64,000 bases of DNA from Bacteroidota bacterium. GTDB lineage: Bacteria; Bacteroidota; Bacteroidia; Chitinophagales; Chitinophagaceae. Position numbers and translations under genes: made by a program. Each line of letters opens with the position of its first letter. The first letter of the stretch is position 1. The notes beneath the pieces are model-generated. The model saw only the letters and a list, made by a program, of their open reading frames with translations, had not been told where the DNA came from and made no database searches. Location of the stretch: assembly GCA_018267965.1 (NCBI GenBank), contig JAFDXK010000001.1, positions 1 to 64,000 on the forward strand, given 5' to 3'. Shown piece by piece: positions 43,193 through 54,203 of the stretch.

Positions 43193-46100
43193 CTACTTAT
43201 ACTTGGTAAGTTCTGTCACTGATTTTCTAATATCATTTAGTAGTAGCCGTATGTCATCCTCCCATTCCGGCGCAAAGTGATTTTCATTGGCTTCTAATTT
43301 ATTGGCTATTAAAAGTACTCTTTTCATTCCCATCATAGCACATTTAGGTTTGAAGGCATGTACCAATTCTTTAATCGTTTCATAATTCTTTTTTGACAAA
43401 GACGCTTCAATTTCATTACAAAATGCCGGGATACCTTTTAAATACAAACTAATATATTGGTGCATTCTAGCTTCATTATCTTCACAGAATTCTCTTAAAC
43501 CTGCAAGGTTCGTTACGATTCCATTCTCACTGTGGTTTTTGTCGCTATCCACTTCAGCGTTTTGCGAGTCAGGAAAGACGTTAGCTTTACCGGTTAATAT
43601 AGCCATCTCTCTTATGAGTGTCAGGGCATTAAAGGGTTTAGTTACACAAGTATTCATACCGGCAGCAAGGCATTCTTCTAAATATGCGTGCTGAACACTT
43701 GCTGTCATTGCAATAATAGGTACTGCATTTTTAGGCGAAGGGAAATTTGCTCTGATATGTTTCGTAGCTTCTATACCGCTCATAATCGGCATCTGTGCAT
43801 CCATCAATATAATGTCATAAACATTGATGTGCAATAAATCTAATGCCTGTTGTCCGTTGGAGGCAATATTTATCATTACATTGGCTTTTAAATTCAATGT
43901 ATCTATTACAGCCAACCTGTTGTATTCATTATCGTCAACAACTAATATTCGAAGCCCGTTCAATACACTTCCATCTACTTTCTGCGCAGTTGTTTTGGAA
44001 ATAATTGTTTGTTGGGTATTTGCTAACTGTAGTGGTATTGTAAATGAAAATGATGAACCTACACTCGGGATACTTTCGGCAGTTATGTTACCGCCCATGA
44101 GTGTTACAAGTCCTTTAGAAATTGAAAGGCCAAGTCCTGTTCCGCCGTGTTTTCTGGTGTCCGATATATTTACCTGGGCAAAATCCCTGAACAACAATTT
44201 AAGTTTCTCAGGCGGTACGCCTATACCAGTATCGGCTACGCTGAATTTGATATTTTGACCTTCTACTAAATCAACATTAATGCGTACATACCCTTTTTCG
44301 GTAAACTTTATAGAATTGCTGCAAAGATTCAGTAATATCTGGCTTAATCGGTAAGGGTCTCCTTCTATCATATCAGGAACTTTGTCCGCAATGACTGTTT
44401 GTATTTGCAGTTTCTTTTCTTCTGCTAAAACCGAAAGTGTGTCGGCTATACTGCTTACAACTTGTTTCAGGGAAAACGGAATTTTCTCTAATTGTAGCTT
44501 ACCTACTTCCATTTTAGAAATATCAAGCACATCATTAATGATATGCAAAAGCAGGTCAGACGATTTCGAAATAGCATTGAGGTATTGAACCTGTTCCGGC
44601 TTAGGGTCCTTTTCCATCAAAAGATGCACGAAACTGTTTACCGCGTTCATCGGAGTGCGAATCTCATGGCTCATATTGGCCAGAAACTGCTGACGTAAAC
44701 GTTCACTGGTTTCTGCTTTTTCTTTTTGTTCTTTGTATTGACTGGTTCTTTCTGCCACTTGACTCTCAAGTAATTTTGTTCGCTTCATGAAAGCATTGGT
44801 GCGGTACTTGTTATATGCATATATAGCAGCAATAACAAACACGAAGCATACAGCATAAAACCACCAGGATTGCCACCATGGCGTCGCTATGACAATCTTT
44901 ACTTCTTGGCTCTCGCTTATATGTTTTCCATCACGGGTACTTGCACGCACTTTAAAAACATAAGTGCCGGGTTGCAGATTAGTGAAGTTTGCTTCATACC
45001 TGTTACCCACATCTATCCAGTCGTCATTTAAACCTACGAGTTTATAAGCATAATTATAGACAACGTTTTCAGTATAATTAAGGACATTGAAGTTAATAGT
45101 GATAAAATTCTGATCATAGTTAAAGTTGTAAACTCTTTTAACCAATGCTGATGAATCTGTTTGGATAGCTTTGTTAAATAATTTGAATCCGGTAATATGT
45201 ACAGGAGGCATCTTGTTTTTATCCAGTAATCTTTTTGGATAAAACTTAACGAGGCCCTCGTTAGCCGCAAAATATATGGCATCTTCCTGCTTGTCATATA
45301 CCATTTGACTTTCTATTTTATGTACGGGAAGGTCTCTATACGCCTCATAGGCTGTAATATCGTTCCTGGAATCCATTTTAATCACCGCACTTTTGGTGGC
45401 GAACCAAATATTACCTTCGCCGTCTTCGGTAAGGCTTACTATATTATTGTCTGGTAATTTTTTGATATTCTTATACAAGATAAATTTTTGAACCCTGCGA
45501 TCGAATGTGTCAATCCAATCAGAACCCCAAACCCATATACAGTTTTTCGAATCAGTAAACATACCTCTTATTTGGTTTGCATTTACTGACGTTTTACTTG
45601 CATTGTCAAGACTAAAATATTTAAGGCTATAATCACTGCTGATACGAACAATGTTATTCCCATTTTCAGGTGGGTAAAGCGAACACCATATATTACCCGA
45701 TTTATCTTTTGTAATAAATGGTTTTACGTTATTCACTAAAAAATTTCTTGTGTTTTTTTGCAGATTAATAATGCTGGCTTGCCTGTCAAAAAATATAACG
45801 ATCAAATTAGAATCATCTTTTTCAACAATTGATTGAATAGGCAAGTAGTTGCGATATGCAATCCTCCGATAATTACACTCTGAAATCGTTTCATTTTTAG
45901 TGTTGTATCTGTAAATCAAATCAGCCATACTAATCCAAAAATGCCCAGACTTTGAGGGGCTTATTGAGTAGCTTGGGAATGAATATTCTTTGCCATTTCG
46001 AACGCCAATTTGTTCAAATAATTTCACTTCGTTGGTGTGTGTGTTCAACAAGCGAACTCCGCGTTGGCTTCCTACTAAAATCTTTCCACCATCAACAGGA

Positions 46101-47377
46101 CACAATGCTTGAGTGGTTACATCTCCATACCTATCTGTAGGCTTTATCTTTAAAAAATCATAAGGGTATACTACAAAATTCTCAATCGGGGGGTCTATTA
46201 TATTAATCCCTCCACCAATGGTGCCTATCCATATTCTGCCATCCTTATCCTTATAAACTACTTTTATGAAATCATCGGAAAGACTGCTGGGATTTAGCGG
46301 ATTGTTTTTATAGGTTATAATACTACCATCAATAGTATTTAACACATTTATTCCTCCTCCTTCAGTCCCTATATATATCTTATTACCGGCTGGGCAAATG
46401 GATCGAACAATATTATTTGACAGCCTTACAGAATCTTTTACGTTATTTTCGAATGTTTCAAATTTTCGGTCTGCCAAATTGTACTTAAGGATAACAGAGT
46501 CTTTTGTATTATTATTGAAGGATTCAAATTCCCAATCTGCCAAATTATACTTAAGGATACCTACAAATGTTGATAACCATACATTTCCTGAACTATCGGG
46601 AGTAATACCGTAGACCAGCCTTAGCATATGCGACACGCTATCGTAATGTTGCCTGTTAACTAATGCCTTACCAACTGATACGGGGTGAAATTGATTTGTA
46701 TTTAAATCATAGTAGTTTAAATGTCCTGTGGTTTTCAGATCTCTGAACGGGTCGCCACCTCCTTCAAATGTCCCCACAAAGTATTTGCCATTTGCTATTT
46801 CGTATATCGAAGTACATTTTATACTTGCTATCGTGTAGCGGTCGTTTGCTCTCCATATATGATGTATGAATGTTTGCCTGCTTTCATCAAACAATTCTAA
46901 TCCCCCGCCGTATAGGCATATCCAAAACCTGCCTTCATTATCTTCATAAATCTGAGCTACATACCCGGTATTAATGCTGTTTGGTTTCTTAGGGTCATGT
47001 TCGTAACGTTTGAATTTTTCCGTTATCGGGTCATATATAGTGATGCCATTATCATTAGTACCTATCCATATTCTGCCCCTGCGGTCTTCGTACAAAGCAG
47101 TGATATTGTTTCCGCTAAGGCTATTGGAGTCATTGGGGTTTCGAATAAATAAATCGAAGTTTCTGCCGTCGTAACGGTTCAGGCCTTTATCTGTACCAAA
47201 CCACATGAATCCATTACGGTCTTGCAATATGCAATTGACAATATTGCTTGCCAGCCCATTAGCTCGGTTCAGATGCCTGAATACTACTGGCAGTTCATAA
47301 GGCTTGCCTTTATTGTTTTGAGCAAATGCAGCATAAGATGCAAAAAATAGGAGGCATATGAGTAGCGCTCTTTTCAT
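43193..47377 (-). CDS. Hybrid two-component sensor: propeller, Y_Y_Y, kinase, receiver, Hpt
   Basis: 1394 aa. Signal peptide at 1-19; about 14 two-component-regulator propeller blades (FMWFGTDKGLNRYDG, RIWIGTNDNGITIYDP and so on) to about residue 735; a Y_Y_Y domain at 745-820 (NYAYKLVGLNDDWIDV); one membrane helix at 832-855; HisKA with MSHEIRTPMN (phospho-His near 905); HATPase near 990-1110 (N-box LLNLCSNSIKF, ADTGIGV, GTGLGLSI); receiver at 1144-1255 with DIILMDAQMP (Asp near 1192); and a C-terminal Hpt domain with LVHAFKPKCAMMG (His near 1337). Unlike classical HTCS proteins it has no AraC output, so the Hpt His probably passes phosphate to the LytTR regulator 37 bases upstream. A 66-bp tandem duplication lies in the propeller (46427-46558). 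Confidence 0.92.
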   Translation of the reverse strand: MKRALLICLLFFASYAAFAQNNKGKPYELPVVFRHLNRANGLASNIVNCILQDRNGFMWFGTDKGLNRYDGRNFDLFIRNPNDSNSLSGNNITALYEDRRGRIWIGTNDNGITIYDPITEKFKRYEHDPKKPNSINTGYVAQIYEDNEGRFWICLYGGGLELFDESRQTFIHHIWRANDRYTIASIKCTSIYEIANGKYFVGTFEGGGDPFRDLKTTGHLNYYDLNTNQFHPVSVGKALVNRQHYDSVSHMLRLVYGITPDSSGNVWLSTFVGILKYNLADWEFESFNNNTKDSVILKYNLADRKFETFENNVKDSVRLSNNIVRSICPAGNKIYIGTEGGGINVLNTIDGSIITYKNNPLNPSSLSDDFIKVVYKDKDGRIWIGTIGGGINIIDPPIENFVVYPYDFLKIKPTDRYGDVTTQALCPVDGGKILVGSQRGVRLLNTHTNEVKLFEQIGVRNGKEYSFPSYSISPSKSGHFWISMADLIYRYNTKNETISECNYRRIAYRNYLPIQSIVEKDDSNLIVIFFDRQASIINLQKNTRNFLVNNVKPFITKDKSGNIWCSLYPPENGNNIVRISSDYSLKYFSLDNASKTSVNANQIRGMFTDSKNCIWVWGSDWIDTFDRRVQKFILYKNIKKLPDNNIVSLTEDGEGNIWFATKSAVIKMDSRNDITAYEAYRDLPVHKIESQMVYDKQEDAIYFAANEGLVKFYPKRLLDKNKMPPVHITGFKLFNKAIQTDSSALVKRVYNFNYDQNFITINFNVLNYTENVVYNYAYKLVGLNDDWIDVGNRYEANFTNLQPGTYVFKVRASTRDGKHISESQEVKIVIATPWWQSWWFYAVCFVFVIAAIYAYNKYRTNAFMKRTKLLESQVAERTSQYKEQKEKAETSERLRQQFLANMSHEIRTPMNAVNSFVHLLMEKDPKPEQVQYLNAISKSSDLLLHIINDVLDISKMEVGKLQLEKIPFSLKQVVSSIADTLSVLAEEKKLQIQTVIADKVPDMIEGDPYRLSQILLNLCSNSIKFTEKGYVRINVDLVEGQNIKFSVADTGIGVPPEKLKLLFRDFAQVNISDTRKHGGTGLGLSISKGLVTLMGGNITAESIPSVGSSFSFTIPLQLANTQQTIISKTTAQKVDGSVLNGLRILVVDDNEYNRLAVIDTLNLKANVMINIASNGQQALDLLHINVYDIILMDAQMPIMSGIEATKHIRANFPSPKNAVPIIAMTASVQHAYLEECLAAGMNTCVTKPFNALTLIREMAILTGKANVFPDSQNAEVDSDKNHSENGIVTNLAGLREFCEDNEARMHQYISLYLKGIPAFCNEIEASLSKKNYETIKELVHAFKPKCAMMGMKRVLLIANKLEANENHFAPEWEDDIRLLLNDIRKSVTELTKYK
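46427..46558 (-). repeat. Intragenic 66-bp tandem duplication in the propeller of the hybrid kinase
   Basis: Two adjacent 22-residue units: ILKYNLADWEFESFNNNTKD (first 20 residues) and ILKYNLADRKFETFENNVKD. About three quarters of the bases are identical, so the duplication is not recent. The frame is kept. Confidence 0.75.
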
Positions 47378-47414: not shown

Positions 47415-48176
47415 TCAGAACTGCGAAACCAGTTTCAGCAGTTCATCTTTTTTTCTGCGCGATACATCTAATGTTGTTCCGTCTGTCAATATTACCTGCC
47501 CCCCATCACCACGCAAATATTTTTTCATATGGTTGAGGTTTATCAGGTGCGACTTGTGTATCCTGAAAAACCCATGTGGCAATAACAGCTCCTCAAAACT
47601 ACCAAGGGTTCTAGACGACATTACCATTTTTTTACCATTCTGATAAATCTTGGTGTATCTATCATCGCCTTCACAATACATAATATCCTGCAGGCCTATA
47701 AATATTAACCCATCCATGGTAGGTATTGCCAGGTTTTCAATTTTTGTTTTGGCTTGCGTTATCACTTCCATTTGCCAAAGCGAAAGGTCGGTATCTTTGC
47801 TTCGTTTCTCATAAACCCGGCTTATAGCTTCCTGCAAATCAGCAATATTCACAGGTTTAAGTAAATAATCGATAGCTGAAAAACGTATAGCCCTAATCGC
47901 ATAGTGCTCGTGTGATGTAGTGAATATGATCTCGAAATTGATAGCCGGCAATTTTTTCAGCATATCAAACCCGCTCATGCCGCCCGGCATTTCTACATCC
48001 AGAAACACAACATCCGGTTTTAGCGATGCCAGCTTTCCTATAGCATCTTCCGCACTGTTAAATGTGGCAATCATTTCCACATCGCTCACCTTATGCTTTA
48101 TAATGTCCTGAAGATGAAAACAAGAGAATTCGTCATCATCTATTATTACAGCCTTTAGTTGGTTTGTAATACCCAT
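47415..48176 (-). CDS. LytTR family response regulator
   Basis: 253 aa. Receiver at 1-125 (IIDDDEF, phospho-acceptor Asp 60 in FLDVEMPG, Lys in DYLLKPVN) and LytTR DNA-binding domain at about 150-250 (LQDIMYCEGDDRYTKIYQNGKK, LPHGFFRIHKSHLINLNHMKKYLRGDGGQVILTDGTTLDVSRRKKDEL). LytTR proteins bind paired 9-bp direct repeats about two helical turns apart. Two matching elements lie nearby (51021-51049, 53068-53096). It sits between the protease gene and the hybrid kinase, all on one strand with gaps of 47 and 37 bases, so it is probably the kinase's partner. A perfect hairpin covers its start codon. Confidence 0.93.
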   Translation of the reverse strand: MGITNQLKAVIIDDDEFSCFHLQDIIKHKVSDVEMIATFNSAEDAIGKLASLKPDVVFLDVEMPGGMSGFDMLKKLPAINFEIIFTTSHEHYAIRAIRFSAIDYLLKPVNIADLQEAISRVYEKRSKDTDLSLWQMEVITQAKTKIENLAIPTMDGLIFIGLQDIMYCEGDDRYTKIYQNGKKMVMSSRTLGSFEELLLPHGFFRIHKSHLINLNHMKKYLRGDGGQVILTDGTTLDVSRRKKDELLKLVSQF

Positions 48177-48223: not shown

Positions 48224-50536
48224 CTATTGTTTTGCTATTTTATATACCGCCTCTTCGCCATTGCTTACTATACGCAGGATGTATATGCCCGCAGGGCTAT
48301 TTTCCATATTCACTACCTGCTCGCTGCCGGCGGTAAGGTTGCCTGCGTTGTTGCTGTATACAATCTTACCTGTGATGTCTGCAATAGTTATCACCGTATT
48401 ATTGGCCTGCTTGTCAAAAGCTATATGCAGTTCGTTGCTGGTAGGGTTAGGATATACCTTAAGGGTGTTTTTGATTGCAGCTTTCTCTACGCTTACGGTC
48501 ATACCATCAAATGCATTTATTTTACCCCAGCCCCATGTATTGCTGCCATTAACTGGTATGGCACCTGTATAATTGTCTGTAATAGCAGTTTTCTTCATTC
48601 TGTCCAACGCCTGTGCAGGTGTAAGTGTCGGGTATTTCTGCAACCACAGGGCAAGTATACCTGTAACCATAGGGCATGACATGGAAGTACCTTGCATTTT
48701 TCCGAAATACCATTTTTTTGAACCAATACTAACGTCCTTTACCACGAATGGACTATTAGCGTCGTAGTCACCAGATTTATCGTAGCTATTTACAGATGAA
48801 ATAATCATATTGCCGGGGGCTGTAATGTCGGGTTTAGTACGGCCATCTGCTGTCGGACCCTGAGAGGAAAAGGGTGCTATTGCGCCTGATGGAGCCATAA
48901 AGCCGGGCTCCTGCATTTGCAGCCCTGCATTTAGTGATGTCCATATCGTGTGCGTCGTATATGCCCCAACACTAATTACATTTTTTCCGCCAGCTCCTAC
49001 ACCAACGGTATGGGTCGAATTGCCCGTTATAAGATGAGGGTCGGGAATCCCAAAATCTGTAAAAAGTCCATAGGGTACACCTGGGCTAGGTCTATCAGCC
49101 CACATCTGAACAAAGCTATTTGGGGCGATTATCTTGATAAATAGTTTTAAGGTACTTGTATTGGGTATAGCATTATCTAAAACAGCAATATTGATATTGG
49201 GTTTACCACTATTTGCATCTATACTTGCTTGTAAACCAATTTTCATGGTATCATTATTATTGCCTATTAAGTTAAAACTATAAACAGAATCTATATTAGC
49301 AGCTATTGTGGCTGTGAAGTAAGATGGATTTAAAGTGATAATATCCATTAATAATAATTGAACTTTAAAATTTTCATTCTTCCTGCCATACATATAAGCT
49401 CTATACCCGGCTGTTAACTTTGGATAAGTGGTGAAAAATGTATACGCTACTGAATCCAAATTAACGAAAGTATGTTCTGCATACATGTTATTACTACCAC
49501 TATTTCCTGCAGAGCGTACTAAAAGCATTCCAGGTCCGGTTAATGAGTCCATTGCCTGTTCTTCGGTACTGGTGCCATCATGCGCACCTTCCTGACTGCC
49601 GAAGCTCATATTAATAACACATGGCTTACCAACAGATGCTGCATAGTTTTGTACATATTTTATTGCATCAATAATATAAGTAGTGCTTAATTTGGCAGCT
49701 ACTAATACAATATCACTTTCATAAGCCACACCTTTATAAGGACTGCCCGGGTAACCACCTGCCCCTGCGGCTGTGCCTGCTGTGTGGCTACCATGAGACT
49801 GCACTGTATCATCGTTCGGAGCGCTGAGCATTGCTGCTTCTGTAGTATATTCAGAGCCATATGCGTAACCAACAGGTGGCGTGCCGGAGTTATTCTTTTG
49901 ATTCCAGAACCTTTTAACACGATAATTGGCAGTACCAGTTGTGTCATAAAAGTTAGGGTGTGTAAGATCAAAGCCTACATCCAGGTCTCCGACTACAACG
50001 CCTTTGCCTGTGTAGGGCATGGTTAGTGGCGCTAGACCCTTGTGCACTTTATCTACATTAGTAACTATACGTGCCGTATCCATATGCAGGAATTCTTTGC
50101 TACCAATATCTAAAAGCAACAAATCCGGCATTTGTACTATTGCTTCAATCTTGTCTATAGGCACTAGTGCTGTATATAAACTCCCAATTTTAGAACCCAA
50201 TAGCACACCCTGTTCGCTAAGCCCTGACATAGTAAGCTGACCTTTTAACTTAATAAAGCTGTTAGCGTATAACTTATTCCCTTTGCGTATCAACGCATAC
50301 TTTTGTGTCAGTTGTTCTTCATTAATACTTCCGGATTTTTTTTTCATTTCCATCATTTCGAGCAATAGGAATGCTGTATTTGTCGACATACCGTGAGTTG
50401 ACATGGCATCTGTCGGGCGCGCTATTTTTGCTGAAGGGAAATCGGCCGGTATCCTTCTTGGCTTTTCATTGTTCTGTGCCTGTACATTGAAGGACAAGAA
50501 CAGGAAAAAGAGTAATAAAATGTTTAGCTGTTTCAT
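48224..50536 (-). CDS. T9SS-secreted subtilisin-like serine protease (S8)
   Basis: 770 aa. Signal peptide at 1-20; propeptide-like region at about 60-165; S8 catalytic domain with Asp 186 (GDLDVGFDLTHPNF), His 251 (SHGSHTAGT), oxyanion Asn 345 (RSAGNSG) and Ser near 617 (GTSMSCPMVTG); a beta insert at about 355-500; and a type A sorting domain at the end (VYPNPTSNELHIAFD ... SPAGIYILRIVSNGEE). It is therefore an active extracellular or cell-surface protease. The gene upstream by 11 bases encodes a stand-alone protein resembling this propeptide. Downstream are the LytTR regulator and hybrid kinase on the same strand. Confidence 0.93.
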   Translation of the reverse strand: MKQLNILLLFFLFLSFNVQAQNNEKPRRIPADFPSAKIARPTDAMSTHGMSTNTAFLLLEMMEMKKKSGSINEEQLTQKYALIRKGNKLYANSFIKLKGQLTMSGLSEQGVLLGSKIGSLYTALVPIDKIEAIVQMPDLLLLDIGSKEFLHMDTARIVTNVDKVHKGLAPLTMPYTGKGVVVGDLDVGFDLTHPNFYDTTGTANYRVKRFWNQKNNSGTPPVGYAYGSEYTTEAAMLSAPNDDTVQSHGSHTAGTAAGAGGYPGSPYKGVAYESDIVLVAAKLSTTYIIDAIKYVQNYAASVGKPCVINMSFGSQEGAHDGTSTEEQAMDSLTGPGMLLVRSAGNSGSNNMYAEHTFVNLDSVAYTFFTTYPKLTAGYRAYMYGRKNENFKVQLLLMDIITLNPSYFTATIAANIDSVYSFNLIGNNNDTMKIGLQASIDANSGKPNINIAVLDNAIPNTSTLKLFIKIIAPNSFVQMWADRPSPGVPYGLFTDFGIPDPHLITGNSTHTVGVGAGGKNVISVGAYTTHTIWTSLNAGLQMQEPGFMAPSGAIAPFSSQGPTADGRTKPDITAPGNMIISSVNSYDKSGDYDANSPFVVKDVSIGSKKWYFGKMQGTSMSCPMVTGILALWLQKYPTLTPAQALDRMKKTAITDNYTGAIPVNGSNTWGWGKINAFDGMTVSVEKAAIKNTLKVYPNPTSNELHIAFDKQANNTVITIADITGKIVYSNNAGNLTAGSEQVVNMENSPAGIYILRIVSNGEEAVYKIAKQ

Positions 50537-50547
50537 ATAGTTGATAT

Positions 50548-50961
50548 TTAATTGATTTCAAGTTTTTTTGATAATTCGAAATAGGTGATGCCTTTCTGAT
50601 TCAGGAATGTTGAAAACGCTGATAACGGAACCAGTATCGTTCTGATGTCTCCCGATGGTTGGCCGGGAAATGTTTTTATTTTCTTAAGCTGCTTCTCAGA
50701 AAAATTTTTATCGGTTTTTATAAACCCGCTTACATAGTAGATGCCCTTTATTTTTTGCAGGCTATACTTTTTTATTAATTGAGTTGAGGGATTGAATGTT
50801 TTCAAAGGTTGTTTAGAAGTATTCATTTCATTCTGCAGGTCCATCATAAAAAATTTGGTATCTGCAGAAACAGGGAAAGCCCCTTGTGCGTAAAGTGTTG
50901 TGCACCCTGTAAAAAATGCTAACGGAAGAATCAGAACTAATAAAAAGCGAGGCAGTTTCAT
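50548..50961 (-). CDS. Stand-alone propeptide-like lipoprotein, putative inhibitor or chaperone of the S8 protease
   Basis: 137 aa. Signal sequence with a possible lipobox (FFTGC, Cys 20); cleavage after LYAQ is an alternative. The mature part lines up with residues 60-150 of the adjacent protease: IKKYSLQKIKGIYYVSGFIKTD beside TQKYALIRKGNKLYANSFIKLK, and TILVPLSAFSTFLNQKGI beside TALVPIDKIEAIVQMPDL. Subtilisin propeptides fold as chaperones and tight inhibitors of their own enzyme, and free-standing I9-type relatives inhibit in trans. The gene ends 11 bases before the protease start, so it is co-expressed with it. The LytTR-type element at 51021-51049 lies upstream. Confidence 0.75.
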   Translation of the reverse strand: MKLPRFLLVLILPLAFFTGCTTLYAQGAFPVSADTKFFMMDLQNEMNTSKQPLKTFNPSTQLIKKYSLQKIKGIYYVSGFIKTDKNFSEKQLKKIKTFPGQPSGDIRTILVPLSAFSTFLNQKGITYFELSKKLEIN

Positions 50962-50979: not shown

Positions 50980-50987
50980 CAAACTTC
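50980..50987 (-). promoter_or_regulatory. -7-like element of the propeptide/protease operon
   Basis: Minus-strand GAAGTTTG (one mismatch to TAnnTTTG), 19 bases before the start. It lies 33 bases from the direct-repeat element at 51021. Confidence 0.5.
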
Positions 50988-51020
50988 TTAAAAATTGACA
51001 GTTGTAGAAAGTGCTATGTA

Positions 51021-51049
51021 GCCAACGGCAGAAATGAGTAGGGAACGGA
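51021..51049 (-). promoter_or_regulatory. LytTR-type direct-repeat element, copy 1
   Basis: On the minus strand: TCCGTTCCC, 11 bases, GCCGTTGGC. The 11-base spacer reads AGAAATGAGTA on the plus strand and is identical in copy 2 at 53068-53096. The half sites fit the LytTR pattern (nCCGTTnnC). Confidence 0.75.
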
Positions 51050-51065
51050 GGATTTATACATAAAC

Positions 51066-51087
51066 AAAGCCCTCGTGAGAGGGCTTT
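51066..51087 (-). terminator. Terminator of the outer-membrane protein / DUF4177 operon
   Basis: AAAGCCCTC / GAGGGCTTT with a 4-base loop, followed by T-rich sequence on the minus strand. Confidence 0.8.
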
Positions 51088-51106
51088 AGTATTACATTCA
51101 ATAGTA

Positions 51107-51511
51107 TTATTTCGCTCTGCGGAATAAGTAACGGGTAATAAATATGCCTCCCGAACTGCTGCCATTAGATATTTGCGAATGCGACCCTGTAGCAACAGAA
51201 ACTAGTTCCCACCCATCATTACTATATTGATTGATGCGCTCTACGATTGCGTTATCATTATCAGCAATGTTGCCAAAATTGATGCCGACCATACTATAAA
51301 AGTTTTTCAGGTCTTTCTCTATCAGCTGCCCGTTCATGTCAGTTGTAAGTATGCGCGATCTACCTAAACCACCTGCAACTACAGATTCTATCGTCGAAAA
51401 TTGTTTGTATTCATACCTGGCTTGTTCCGGGTTGGGCCTGAATGCAAATCCGGTAATAATGATAAGTAATGTTAGCGCAACTAATGCTATGGTCTTGAAA
51501 TTGTTTTTCAT
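51107..51511 (-). CDS. DUF4177-like exported protein
   Basis: 134 aa. An N-terminal hydrophobic segment (IALVALTLLIIITGFAF) acts as signal or anchor. The mature part opens YEYKQFSTIESVV and closes INQYSNDGWELVSVATG ... GIFITRYLFRR, the DUF4177 pattern (start YEYK, DGWELV, final strand). Small alpha-beta domain of unknown function. It begins 35 bases after the outer-membrane protein gene and shares its terminator, so it belongs to the operon headed by the HEEFH protein. Confidence 0.75.
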   Translation of the reverse strand: MKNNFKTIALVALTLLIIITGFAFRPNPEQARYEYKQFSTIESVVAGGLGRSRILTTDMNGQLIEKDLKNFYSMVGINFGNIADNDNAIVERINQYSNDGWELVSVATGSHSQISNGSSSGGIFITRYLFRRAK

Positions 51512-51546
51512 ACTGTATGATTTTAAAGTTGTTTAGAGATTTTCTT

Positions 51547-52995
51547 TTAATACTTGTAATTAAATCTTGCAGACAGACCGAATTCAAAGCCCATCTTATC
51601 ATCCAGAAACGGATTGCCTCTTACCCAACCCTTGGTTTTGCCACTCACACCTATATAAGGGTAGATAAATTTGTTGGCTTTCCATTTCAACATAATATTG
51701 GCATACCCTGTAAAAGCTCCTGTTGCAGTAAAGAAAGACTGATCTTTAGGTTGCAAATCTGCTATGACATCAACTGTTGCCAGAAACTTTTGGTTACCCA
51801 TTTTCACAGGATATTCAAAAAGCATGGCTTCTATACCCGGGAAATTATGAGACAAGTTTTGGTTGAGGTGAGGAGATACGAAAATGTTGTATTTAGATAT
51901 GCTTGTCATCAGATCTATACCAATTGAATTACCAAATGATGTAGGATAGTACCTTCCTGCCAAGGCAGCGCGAAATGTTTTCAACCCTTTATTCTTCTTG
52001 AAAAACAATTCTGAAATTCGAAAATCTATCAACCCAAAATAGTTTAACGAAGACAACCTTGCTTGCTTTTTTAACCATGATATTTGTTCATCGGTAAGGT
52101 CTGACCCTTTTATGTACCTGTCATAGCCATTACCATAAGGGTTTAAGCCTCGTGCTGCATATGCTTCATTAGGGTGCCAAAGGTCATATGCCCAGGCAGC
52201 AGGGTCTAACCCGCAAAAATCTCTTAATTCTTGCTTTGAACCCTCGTTGGCCATTTGCTCTTCTGTTTTTTTAGTCAGTTCATCTCTATTTGTACACACT
52301 TTAAGGTATTGATGCACATTTTGAGCGCTGAATATGTAGTATAAAAAGTTGGGCAAACGACTATCATAGAAGAAATCTTGTTGCTGCATTCTTGAGATAC
52401 CATATACCTGTCCTTCCATTCCTGCTGCTTCCAATCTTACCAAACCGGGGTTATTATTTTTTTTAAGCAACACAAGGTTTGTATCCAACACATAGGCTAC
52501 TGATGCTAAGCCATTGCTCGTCAAACCTTCACGCTTATTAACTGTTAAAGGGTTGAAGCTATTGGTATAATTGACAACCATAGCATTTCTGTGAAACTCC
52601 TCATGGGCCCATCCGGCTCCGTAATAGTTGCCTATCACACCTATATCTAAAACACCAGCCAGGGTGAAATTGAATACCCTTTTCCAAATCTTGTGTTTTT
52701 TCAAAATGGGTATTTGAGTAACTCCCCAATTTACCGTTTGGGCAATGCCTGTAGATATTTGTGTAGCCTGTTGCATGCTCTGGTATTGCATACCCTTGAA
52801 CAAACTCACCTGTGCATTAGGATCAGCAATAGTACAATTAACCGTTTTGCCGGCGTATGTTGCAAATGGGAAATCAAGTATGGTATATTCCAATACCAAC
52901 GGTCTCTTTTCATTAGTGTGTTGCGCTACAGTGTCCGGATTAGCATGCGACTGTGTTGCAGTAAATAACAGCCCAATAAGAATAGCCTTTTTCAT
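51547..52995 (-). CDS. Outer-membrane-like protein with HEEFH motif
   Basis: 482 aa. Signal peptide at 1-18. Residues 105-200 contain a hydrophobic helix leading into GAGWAHEEFHRNAM, so an HExxH zinc-protease motif at 131-135, with candidate third ligands Glu 190 or Glu 195 in LVRLEAAGMEGQ. From about residue 330 the protein is beta-rich (NYFGLIDFRISELFF ... GFEFGLSARFNYKY) and ends in Tyr/Phe like an outer-membrane barrel. No family name is certain. The promoter carries the same direct-repeat element, at the same spacing, as the S8 protease operon, so the two are probably co-regulated. A second protease of the module is possible. Confidence 0.7.
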   Translation of the reverse strand: MKKAILIGLLFTATQSHANPDTVAQHTNEKRPLVLEYTILDFPFATYAGKTVNCTIADPNAQVSLFKGMQYQSMQQATQISTGIAQTVNWGVTQIPILKKHKIWKRVFNFTLAGVLDIGVIGNYYGAGWAHEEFHRNAMVVNYTNSFNPLTVNKREGLTSNGLASVAYVLDTNLVLLKKNNNPGLVRLEAAGMEGQVYGISRMQQQDFFYDSRLPNFLYYIFSAQNVHQYLKVCTNRDELTKKTEEQMANEGSKQELRDFCGLDPAAWAYDLWHPNEAYAARGLNPYGNGYDRYIKGSDLTDEQISWLKKQARLSSLNYFGLIDFRISELFFKKNKGLKTFRAALAGRYYPTSFGNSIGIDLMTSISKYNIFVSPHLNQNLSHNFPGIEAMLFEYPVKMGNQKFLATVDVIADLQPKDQSFFTATGAFTGYANIMLKWKANKFIYPYIGVSGKTKGWVRGNPFLDDKMGFEFGLSARFNYKY

Positions 52996-53026
52996 TTTTT
53001 ACATTTTTAGAAGATAGTATGCTGGA

Positions 53027-53034
53027 CAAACTTG
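53027..53034 (-). promoter_or_regulatory. -7-like element of the HEEFH gene operon
   Basis: Minus-strand CAAGTTTG (one mismatch to TAnnTTTG). It is 33 bases from the direct-repeat element at 53068, exactly as in the protease operon. Confidence 0.5.
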
Positions 53035-53067
53035 ATTATTTGTACGAGAATGCCATAGCGAAATGTA

Positions 53068-53096
53068 GGGAACGGTAGAAATGAGTAGTGAACGGT
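53068..53096 (-). promoter_or_regulatory. LytTR-type direct-repeat element, copy 2
   Basis: On the minus strand: ACCGTTCAC, 11 bases, ACCGTTCCC. The spacer is identical to copy 1. It lies between the divergent HEEFH gene and DUF3667 gene and could serve both. Confidence 0.75.
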
Positions 53097-53119: not shown

Positions 53120-53127
53120 TACATTTG
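53120..53127 (+). promoter_or_regulatory. -7 element of the DUF3667 gene
   Basis: TACATTTG, a perfect TAnnTTTG match, 17 bases before the ATG at 53145. It starts 23 bases after the LytTR-type element. Confidence 0.6.
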
Positions 53128-53144: not shown

Positions 53145-54203
53145 ATGGAAGATGTAGAAATAACCAATGAACAACAGTGTAAAAATTGTGGCTCAGTACT
53201 CGACGGCAAGTTTTGTAAAAATTGCGGCCAAAAAGTAATTGAACACAAAGAGACGATATGGCACGCTGTAACACACTTTGTATCTGACATCTTTCATTAT
53301 GACGGGAGATTTATAAGAACGTTAAAATTGTTACTTACCCGTCCTGGCTTTTTGTCTTTAGAGTATAAGAACGGTGCCCGAGAAAAGTATGTTGACCCTT
53401 TTAGGCTTTATTTATTCATGTCCGCATTAGCCGTTGTAGTGTTTGTAAACATTGAAAGTCCTCAGGAAACAGTTACCAGAAGGGATAACCCCGATATCAT
53501 ACGTTTCATTGACTCAACAAGGGCAGCCCTGCTGACCGATAGGGCGCATAGCGCAAAAAATAAGAAAGGCAGATATGACCGGATCAAATTTGAGGTGAAC
53601 GGGAAAAAGATAACAATACTTGACCCGGCAGATATTTTAAAGCATGGCAAGCGCTATTACGACTCTGTTCAAAATACCCTTAGTCCACAAAAAAGAACTA
53701 GTGGTTATTTCCGATATAAGGATATGAAAGTTATAGAGGCATATGATGCCTTTGATATGGCTCCGTATAATTATTCCCAAAAAATAGATGAGAAGATTAG
53801 TCTGCTCCTTCCTAAAGCGTTTTTTATTTCGATGCCATTTTTCATTCTTGCGCTATTCGCGCTTTATTTCAATAAACGGAAACAATATCTTTCTGCGTAC
53901 CATGCCATATTCACTTTGCATATTTATACTACTATGTGGGTATTTATCATGCTAGATAGTATTACGTCAACATATTTTGAACATCCCAAAACTCATATTA
54001 TATATACTTGTGTAGGCTATATTATTTTTTTCGGCTGTTTAGTTTACCTCTATGTAGCAATGCTTCGGTTCTATAAAGAACGCTGGTGGCTTACCCTGAT
54101 AAAGGCAATCGTATTGATAATTTTTACAGGATTAGTTTTTTACGGCGGTGTACTAATACTGAAAGAATACTTAACTATATCCCTTGCTACAATTCCTGCA
54201 TAG
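53145..54203 (+). CDS. DUF3667 membrane protein with N-terminal zinc ribbon
   Basis: 352 aa from the ATG at 53145, chosen because of the promoter box and because the family starts at the zinc ribbon (CKNCGSVLDGKFCKNCGQK). Next is the DUF3667 core: ETIWHAVTHFVSDIFHYDGRFIRTLKLLLTRPGFLSLEYKNGAREKYVDPFRLYLFMSALAVVVF. A soluble charged loop of about 130 residues follows, then three to four C-terminal membrane helices. Frequent in Bacteroidota, function unknown. Transcribed divergently from the HEEFH gene, with the LytTR-type element between them; it has a strong terminator of its own. Confidence 0.88.
   Translation: MEDVEITNEQQCKNCGSVLDGKFCKNCGQKVIEHKETIWHAVTHFVSDIFHYDGRFIRTLKLLLTRPGFLSLEYKNGAREKYVDPFRLYLFMSALAVVVFVNIESPQETVTRRDNPDIIRFIDSTRAALLTDRAHSAKNKKGRYDRIKFEVNGKKITILDPADILKHGKRYYDSVQNTLSPQKRTSGYFRYKDMKVIEAYDAFDMAPYNYSQKIDEKISLLLPKAFFISMPFFILALFALYFNKRKQYLSAYHAIFTLHIYTTMWVFIMLDSITSTYFEHPKTHIIYTCVGYIIFFGCLVYLYVAMLRFYKERWWLTLIKAIVLIIFTGLVFYGGVLILKEYLTISLATIPA

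Follow-up and report, generated by a model that had tools for sequence, protein, structure and literature searches.

Within the window (the whole stretch of DNA analysed, 64,000 nucleotides), two near-identical direct-repeat elements each stand in front of a row of genes on the minus strand (Table 1). Behind element 1 come genes for a prodomain-like protein (no Pfam family at E 0.001), an S8 subtilase, a LytTR response regulator and a hybrid sensor kinase, all on one strand with gaps of 11, 47 and 37 bases, and we infer that this row is co-transcribed. The first-pass annotation had noticed a LytTR regulator gene nearby on the same strand; it is there, with the correction that its gene and the kinase gene are the downstream members of the row that begins with the prodomain and S8 genes. 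Because element 1 precedes the regulator's own gene row, the regulator is probably autoregulated. Both domains of a LytTR response regulator score above their Pfam cut-offs in it (PF00072, 71.9 bits; PF04397, 68.3 bits), and FFRIHKS, present in 4/4 regulator orthologs, equals the LytTR FhRhHRS motif except for K in place of R. The kinase gave no match to an AraC-type domain in Pfam; its Hpt match falls just under the cut-off (24.4 of 24.6 bits) and lies at or just around it in this genome and its relatives.

Table 1 Features of the two elements and their flanking genes
Feature	Position	Strand	Remarks
Hybrid sensor kinase	43193..47377	-	Reg_prop, Y_Y_Y, HisKA, HATPase, REC
LytTR response regulator	47415..48176	-	REC + LytTR, carrying FFRIHKS; proposed to bind both elements
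S8 subtilase	48224..50536	-	T9SS sorting tail
Prodomain-like protein	50548..50961	-	First gene of element-1 operon
-7-like octamer, element 1	50980..50987	-	GAAGTTTG, 33 bases from second 9-mer half-site
Element 1	51018..51049	-	Direct repeats TCCGTTCCCTAC - TCATTTCT - GCCGTTGGCTAC; basis: window sequence, similar sites in relatives
Terminator-like hairpin	51065..51088	-	After DUF4177, just before element 1; pattern match only
DUF4177-like protein	51107..51511	-	Second gene of element-2 operon; below Pfam cut-off, E 0.0012
HEEFH protein	51547..52995	-	First gene of element-2 operon
-7-like octamer, element 2	53027..53034	-	CAAGTTTG, 33 bases from second 9-mer half-site, HEEFH/DUF4177 side
Element 2	53065..53096	-	ACCGTTCACTAC - TCATTTCT - ACCGTTCCCTAC; basis: window sequence, repeat comparison
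-7 box before DUF3667	53120..53127	+	TACATTTG (TAnnTTTG, 6 of 6), 24 bases from element 2
DUF3667 protein	53145..54203	+	Divergent from element 2

Element 2 precedes the HEEFH/DUF4177 operon. The HEEFH protein (482 aa) belongs to no family in Pfam (E 0.001), NCBIfam (0.05) or PHROGs (0.01), with one sub-cut-off match in Pfam at 0.5, and has a single homolog besides itself in 99 genomes (31% identity, in genome G050); an AlphaFold model built from the one sequence was uninformative (mean pLDDT 29.7). The hairpin between this operon and element 1 would separate the two transcription units, such hairpins being no commoner in the region than in shuffles (3 versus a shuffle mean of 4.3).

Read on the minus strand, element 1 is TCCGTTCCC-TACTCATTTCT-GCCGTTGGC and element 2 is ACCGTTCAC-TACTCATTTCT-ACCGTTCCC, that is, 9-mer half-sites around an identical 11-base spacer. 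The half-sites, spacer (AGAAATGAGTA on the plus strand) and coordinates (51021-51049 and 53068-53096) originally given for the pair were correct. The true repeat unit is nevertheless a 12-mer, nCCGTTnnCTAC, with a period of 20 and 8 bases between units, and TAC, 3 of the 11 bases first counted as spacer, belongs to it. Across seven strong sites in four genomes (this one, Chitinophagaceae bacterium IBVUCB1 (G007), Flavipsychrobacter MAG-392 (G012) and Flavipsychrobacter HJP_bin8 (G240)), the first half equals the second at 67/84 positions for period 20 and at just 9-32/84 for the other periods tested (15-26). CCGTTnnC alone is common, with 28 occurrences in the window counting the four half-sites of the elements; CCGTTnnCTAC occurs four times, always inside elements 1 and 2.

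The broad LytTR half-site consensus is [TA][AC][CA]GTTN[AG][TG]. Against this consensus the 14 half-sites match at 5 to 8 of 9 positions, six of them at only 5-6. LytTR sites are described as two repeats of 9-11 nt with 11-13 nt between and no common consensus (PMC4847170). All seven strong sites have 9-mers 11 nt apart (period 20), a spacing that was itself used in seeking them, except for the two window elements, which the first-pass annotation supplied.

An octamer of the form nAAGTTTG follows both half-site pairs at exactly 33 bases, and the intervening stretches are not alike, both as initially proposed for a GTTTG-ending -7-like box. Six of the seven strong sites in the four genomes have an octamer with at least 5 of 6 TAnnTTTG matches at this distance; the exception, in MAG-392, has 4 of 6 and is no better than others nearby. 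Two Bacteroides examples have 19 bp between the -33 box and the -7 box, one of them reading TCCGGTATTCA-11-ACCGGAAATCA, 11 bp, TGTA-19-TATCTTTG (PMC6193735). Provided that 19 bp holds here, the distance resolves as 33 = 10 + 4 (the -33 box) + 19: the tetramer 19 bp before the octamer, a weak one placed by assumption from the Bacteroides examples, lies 10 bp from the repeats. The -33 tetramers are poor, with T at the first position in 10/10 sites listed and TTTG in none. The recognition of the elements as LytTR-type 9-bp direct repeats fits the published pattern of an 11-bp spacer and, on that assumption, of a place about 10 bp before a -33/-35 box. With the octamer at -12 to -5, the -7 box position given for F. 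psychrophilum (PMC9723704), the block spans about -74 to -43 and centres near -60.

The elements are rare. Allowing up to 3 mismatches, the motif CCGTTNNCTACTCATTTCTNCCGTT turned up twice in the window and never in 100 dinucleotide shuffles, and the genome scan proposed at the outset returned the same 2 in 3.74 Mb, with 0 for a backwards-read control. A genome search with 86 bases around element 1 (E 0.001) recovered, besides the query, a 33-base stretch of element 2 at 88%. The half-site-only pattern CCGTTNNCTACNNNNNNNNNCCGTTNNCTAC at up to 3 mismatches had 5 matches, three of them exact: the two window elements and a third site on another contig (C8:50705-50735). We rejected this pattern at 3 mismatches, where matches stood against backwards controls at 5/5 here, 6/8 in IBVUCB1 and 3/4 in MAG-392, and used only matches with 0-2 mismatches, plus one candidate kept on other grounds.

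At the third site GAAGTTTG again lies exactly 33 bases on, and the spacer (CCAAATCA versus TCATTTCT) differs at 4/8 bases. This site precedes genes for a 168-aa protein, a C39-peptidase ABC transporter and an HlyD protein, which run in a row (L075, 8447-12613 of the C8 locus). The 168-aa protein carries MSEEQLAKVNGGY, a double-glycine-like leader by eye; it matches Pfam Bacteriocin_IIc below cut-off (E 0.17) and NCBIfam CFI-box-CTERM above cut-off, and was not found in any other genome of the genus. Its gene was of no use as an independent test, the search of 59 genomes returning itself and a partial match in G075 only (30%, residues 83-160). The candidate kept on other grounds lies at C5:433778-433808 and is a possible fourth site. 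Its half-sites ACCTTTCCCTAC, GTATTTCACTAC and ACCGTTTACTAC stand at offsets -41, -20 and 0, with TACATTAG (5 of 6) at 33 bases and another, equally good octamer at 42; it precedes a gene for a 911-aa Sortilin/T9SS-tailed protein.

We searched for element and regulator together in 99 genomes (our own, the genus and a sample of the family and order). With up to 3 mismatches allowed, the full motif occurred in 4/99: two copies here, two in IBVUCB1, one in MAG-392 and one in G069, the last (3 mismatches) dropped as chance since the control gave 3 matches in 99 genomes. At the thresholds used, element and regulator were both present in 3 of the 15 genus genomes (G000-G014, G000 being our own) and both missing from the other 12. 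HJP_bin8 encodes a 62%-identical regulator in a 20.7-kb locus holding one site with 1 mismatch (0.02 expected; 2/100 shuffles had one), which precedes the same gene row, 33 bases from AAGATTTG. The fourth locus of the regulator scan that gave HJP_bin8 (L060, 27% over 125 residues) was discarded. Regulator orthologs at 62-90% identity are found in three other genomes, with an element at the same distance before the operon in 3/3, and the order prodomain-S8(-S8)-regulator-kinase with an element in front holds in 4/4 genomes where the regulator was found at ≥62%. The regulator is the best kept of these proteins in IBVUCB1 and MAG-392 (86-90% identity, versus 64-68% for the prodomain-like protein, 59-64% for the kinase and 54-56% for the S8 protease).

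These two relatives have a single element between the prodomain gene and the divergent DUF3667 gene, and the HEEFH/DUF4177 genes are absent between; they show one undivided control region where, in our genome, the HEEFH/DUF4177 operon sits between two element copies. On the DUF3667 side, 3/3 genomes so arranged (ours, IBVUCB1 and MAG-392) have a perfect TAnnTTTG at 24 bases from the element, and DUF3667, named at first as a 'perhaps', probably does belong to the regulon. The -7 box is perfect for DUF3667 and imperfect on the operon side, which inclines us to a regulator that activates the operon and represses DUF3667. The second element of IBVUCB1 precedes one of two tandem S8 genes (L025, 2694-7511): one of the pair follows the prodomain gene, and the other has its own element and octamer.

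The fixed distance to the -7-like box would also suit a block that is no operator but a promoter part, recognised by RNA polymerase itself or by an alternative sigma factor. Such a part would have to reach from about -74 to -43, if the octamer is at -12 to -5, and to take the form of a direct repeat of about two helical turns; the equally fixed 24 bases to the divergent TAnnTTTG in 3/3 genomes argue against it as well, and we regard it as very improbable. It is also very improbable that the pair has no regulatory role and is a repeat, dispersed or linked to an insertion, left around HEEFH/DUF4177 by duplication or recombination. The copies do flank a segment absent there in IBVUCB1 and MAG-392, where one element stands at the junction. 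Against this, there are only two full-motif copies genome-wide, the third site keeps both half-sites and the octamer distance around another spacer, and sites in three other genomes keep the octamer distance. Random dispersal, which would have counted against the operator proposal, was looked for: the full motif has two copies and the exact half-site pair three, all before genes with an octamer at 33 bases. We rejected the repeat on its rarity and kept promoter distance.

Which protein reads the sites is a separate matter, as co-occurrence alone cannot single out the regulator, which is always seen with its target operon. Regulator relatives at E 1e-40 occur in at least 64/99 genomes, and our genome alone has 41 first-look candidates similar to the regulator, 27 of them scored, as other candidate readers. 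Beyond IBVUCB1 and MAG-392, the next best regulator match had 46% identity, among the matches listed (up to 27 candidates scored per genome in 99 genomes). We built a sequence-only model, R1, from the seven strong sites. In its four source genomes R1 found just those seven, the next match having E 0.14 (150 candidates scored per genome), a result that measures rarity and not discovery because the seven sites trained the model. The C5 candidate scored 12.4 bits (E 0.45 in our genome).

When R1 was run over 394 genomes of the family, under stricter filters and with 12 candidates scored per genome, 13 matched at E 0.01: our own, IBVUCB1, HJP_bin8, genome G419 and nine weak ones. The nine (E 7.8e-4 to 9.4e-3) were dropped, about 4 being expected in 394 genomes at 0.01; 8/9 lie inside stop-free frames of at least 261 codons, and two (L129 and L135) have partial half-sites (8+6 and 8+7 of 9+9) with octamers matching at 1 of 6 positions at 33 bases. 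G419, absent from model training, has two sites (E 3e-6 and 2.6e-4; L127 and L137). Both place half-sites at -41, -20 and 0, with a poor one at -20 in the first site, and their octamers, GACGTTTG and CACGTTTG, lie at exactly 33 bases. Of the proteins encoded next, one (332 aa) has no Pfam family at E 0.001 and the other carries a T9SS tail.

No regulator relative was found in G419 at E 1e-30 (34/34 candidates scored), which makes it the strongest result against an exclusive pairing of site and regulator. The sites could be of LytTR type and yet be read by another regulator, with the adjacent LytTR gene a passenger or one of several readers. Besides the two G419 sites with their 33-base distance, the three half-sites of the C5 candidate, placed as in both G419 sites, favour this alternative. 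It has to contend with the 12/12 genus genomes that lack both the regulator and the full motif at up to 3 mismatches, and with the absence of R1 matches (E 1) from 76 other loci of about 3-16 kb, 37 of them other LytTR neighbourhoods. We consider it unlikely, at somewhat under one chance in five. The 76 loci comprise 27 + 10 LytTR neighbourhoods, 22 DUF3667 loci, 1 HEEFH homolog and 16 S8/prodomain loci (8 places counted twice), with distant targets lying outside them; a general LytTR-neighbourhood motif was rejected on the same result. The DUF3667 paralogs had no R1 match nearby in any of their 22 loci. The HEEFH homolog in G050 keeps HEEFHR and has no R1 match nearby.

We put at roughly 75% the probability that the elements are operators of the neighbouring LytTR regulator, as part of a scheme of phosphorelay, feedback and regulon. 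The Reg_prop hybrid kinase would sense a signal and pass phosphate through its REC and Hpt domains to the regulator, a phosphorelay to a separate LytTR protein being plausible. The regulator would then bind the two nCCGTTnnCTAC repeats (period 20) beside the -33 region and recruit RNA polymerase to promoters with an imperfect -7 box. From element 1 it would drive its own operon (prodomain, S8 protease, regulator and kinase) in positive feedback; from element 2 it would drive HEEFH/DUF4177 and control the divergent DUF3667 promoter; and from the third element it would drive the C39-peptidase ABC exporter operon. The original assignment of the elements to this regulator gains from the published geometry and the co-occurrence in relatives, and the G419 sites tell against it. 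The proposed single regulon would take in prodomain/S8, HEEFH/DUF4177 and probably DUF3667, and with the third site on C8 and the C5 candidate it would not be only local.

An operator and regulator so arranged would be of an already known kind. LRS operons (HdrR/BrsR of S. mutans and LRS-like operons of Bacteroides; PMC6193735) likewise have two direct repeats 11-13 bp apart before the regulator's own operon, placed about 10 bp upstream of a -35/-33 box, a likeness here if the assumed 19 bp holds; the repeats are described as autoregulatory and mostly 10 bp upstream of -35, bacteriocin genes are among the targets, which we count as a likeness, and the pneumococcal half-site ACCACTTAC is one base from the IBVUCB1 half-site GCCACTTAC. 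They differ in having an inhibitory membrane protein, where our locus pairs a regulator that contains a receiver domain with a hybrid kinase encoded next to it; our half-site has a conserved CTAC extension and our main target a T9SS-tailed S8 protease. AgrA at P2/P3 of S. aureus is also a LytTR response regulator with direct repeats some 60 bases ahead of the start (the promoter-proximal ones centre near -60) in one intergenic region for two promoters, with a site at each promoter, whereas here one element probably serves two (PMC4227749). YpdB at yhjX of E. coli (PMC4847170) shares the two direct repeats for a LytTR response regulator at 11-13 nt spacing and differs in its half-site, GGCATTTCAT, and its LytS-type kinase, in place of the Reg_prop hybrid kinase here.

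AgrA half-sites differ from ours, and Bacteroidota hybrid two-component systems combine a Reg_prop/Y_Y_Y sensor, HisKA, HATPase and REC in one chain with an AraC-type output. Our locus shares the one-chain sensor and has, instead of the AraC-type output, a near-cut-off Hpt match and a separate LytTR regulator.

The regulator probably activates its own gene together with that of a secreted protease and a small number of other genes linked to secretion. A wider and doubtful interpretation gives Chitinophagaceae a secretion regulon that amplifies itself and is run by a split-output phosphorelay, in which an Hpt-bearing Reg_prop hybrid kinase signals to a separate LytTR regulator. This circuit would turn on the T9SS-tailed subtilase with its prodomain-like partner, the unlinked C39-peptidase exporter with its double-glycine-like substrate, and the HEEFH protein, a recent recruit whose operon was set between two copies of the operator; one shared operator may repress DUF3667. 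If true, this would be a Bacteroidota counterpart of Firmicute LytTR circuits controlling peptide export. An open-access search found no paper combining 'Chitinophagaceae' and 'LytTR', and the printed Bacteroidota LytTR repeats that we encountered are predictions for two Bacteroides operons (PMC6193735). What results is a defined predicted operator with an exact geometry and predicted targets in four genomes. The locus also suggests a way for an operon to join a regulon, with new genes set between two operator copies here versus one shared bidirectional operator in two relatives.

One further sequence resembles these promoters. In genome G032 (L131, C1:3873255-3873301), the half-site-like CAAATTGGCTAC is followed, 33 bases on by eye count, by a perfect TAGGTTTG; this could be a remote member of the same promoter type or a coincidence.
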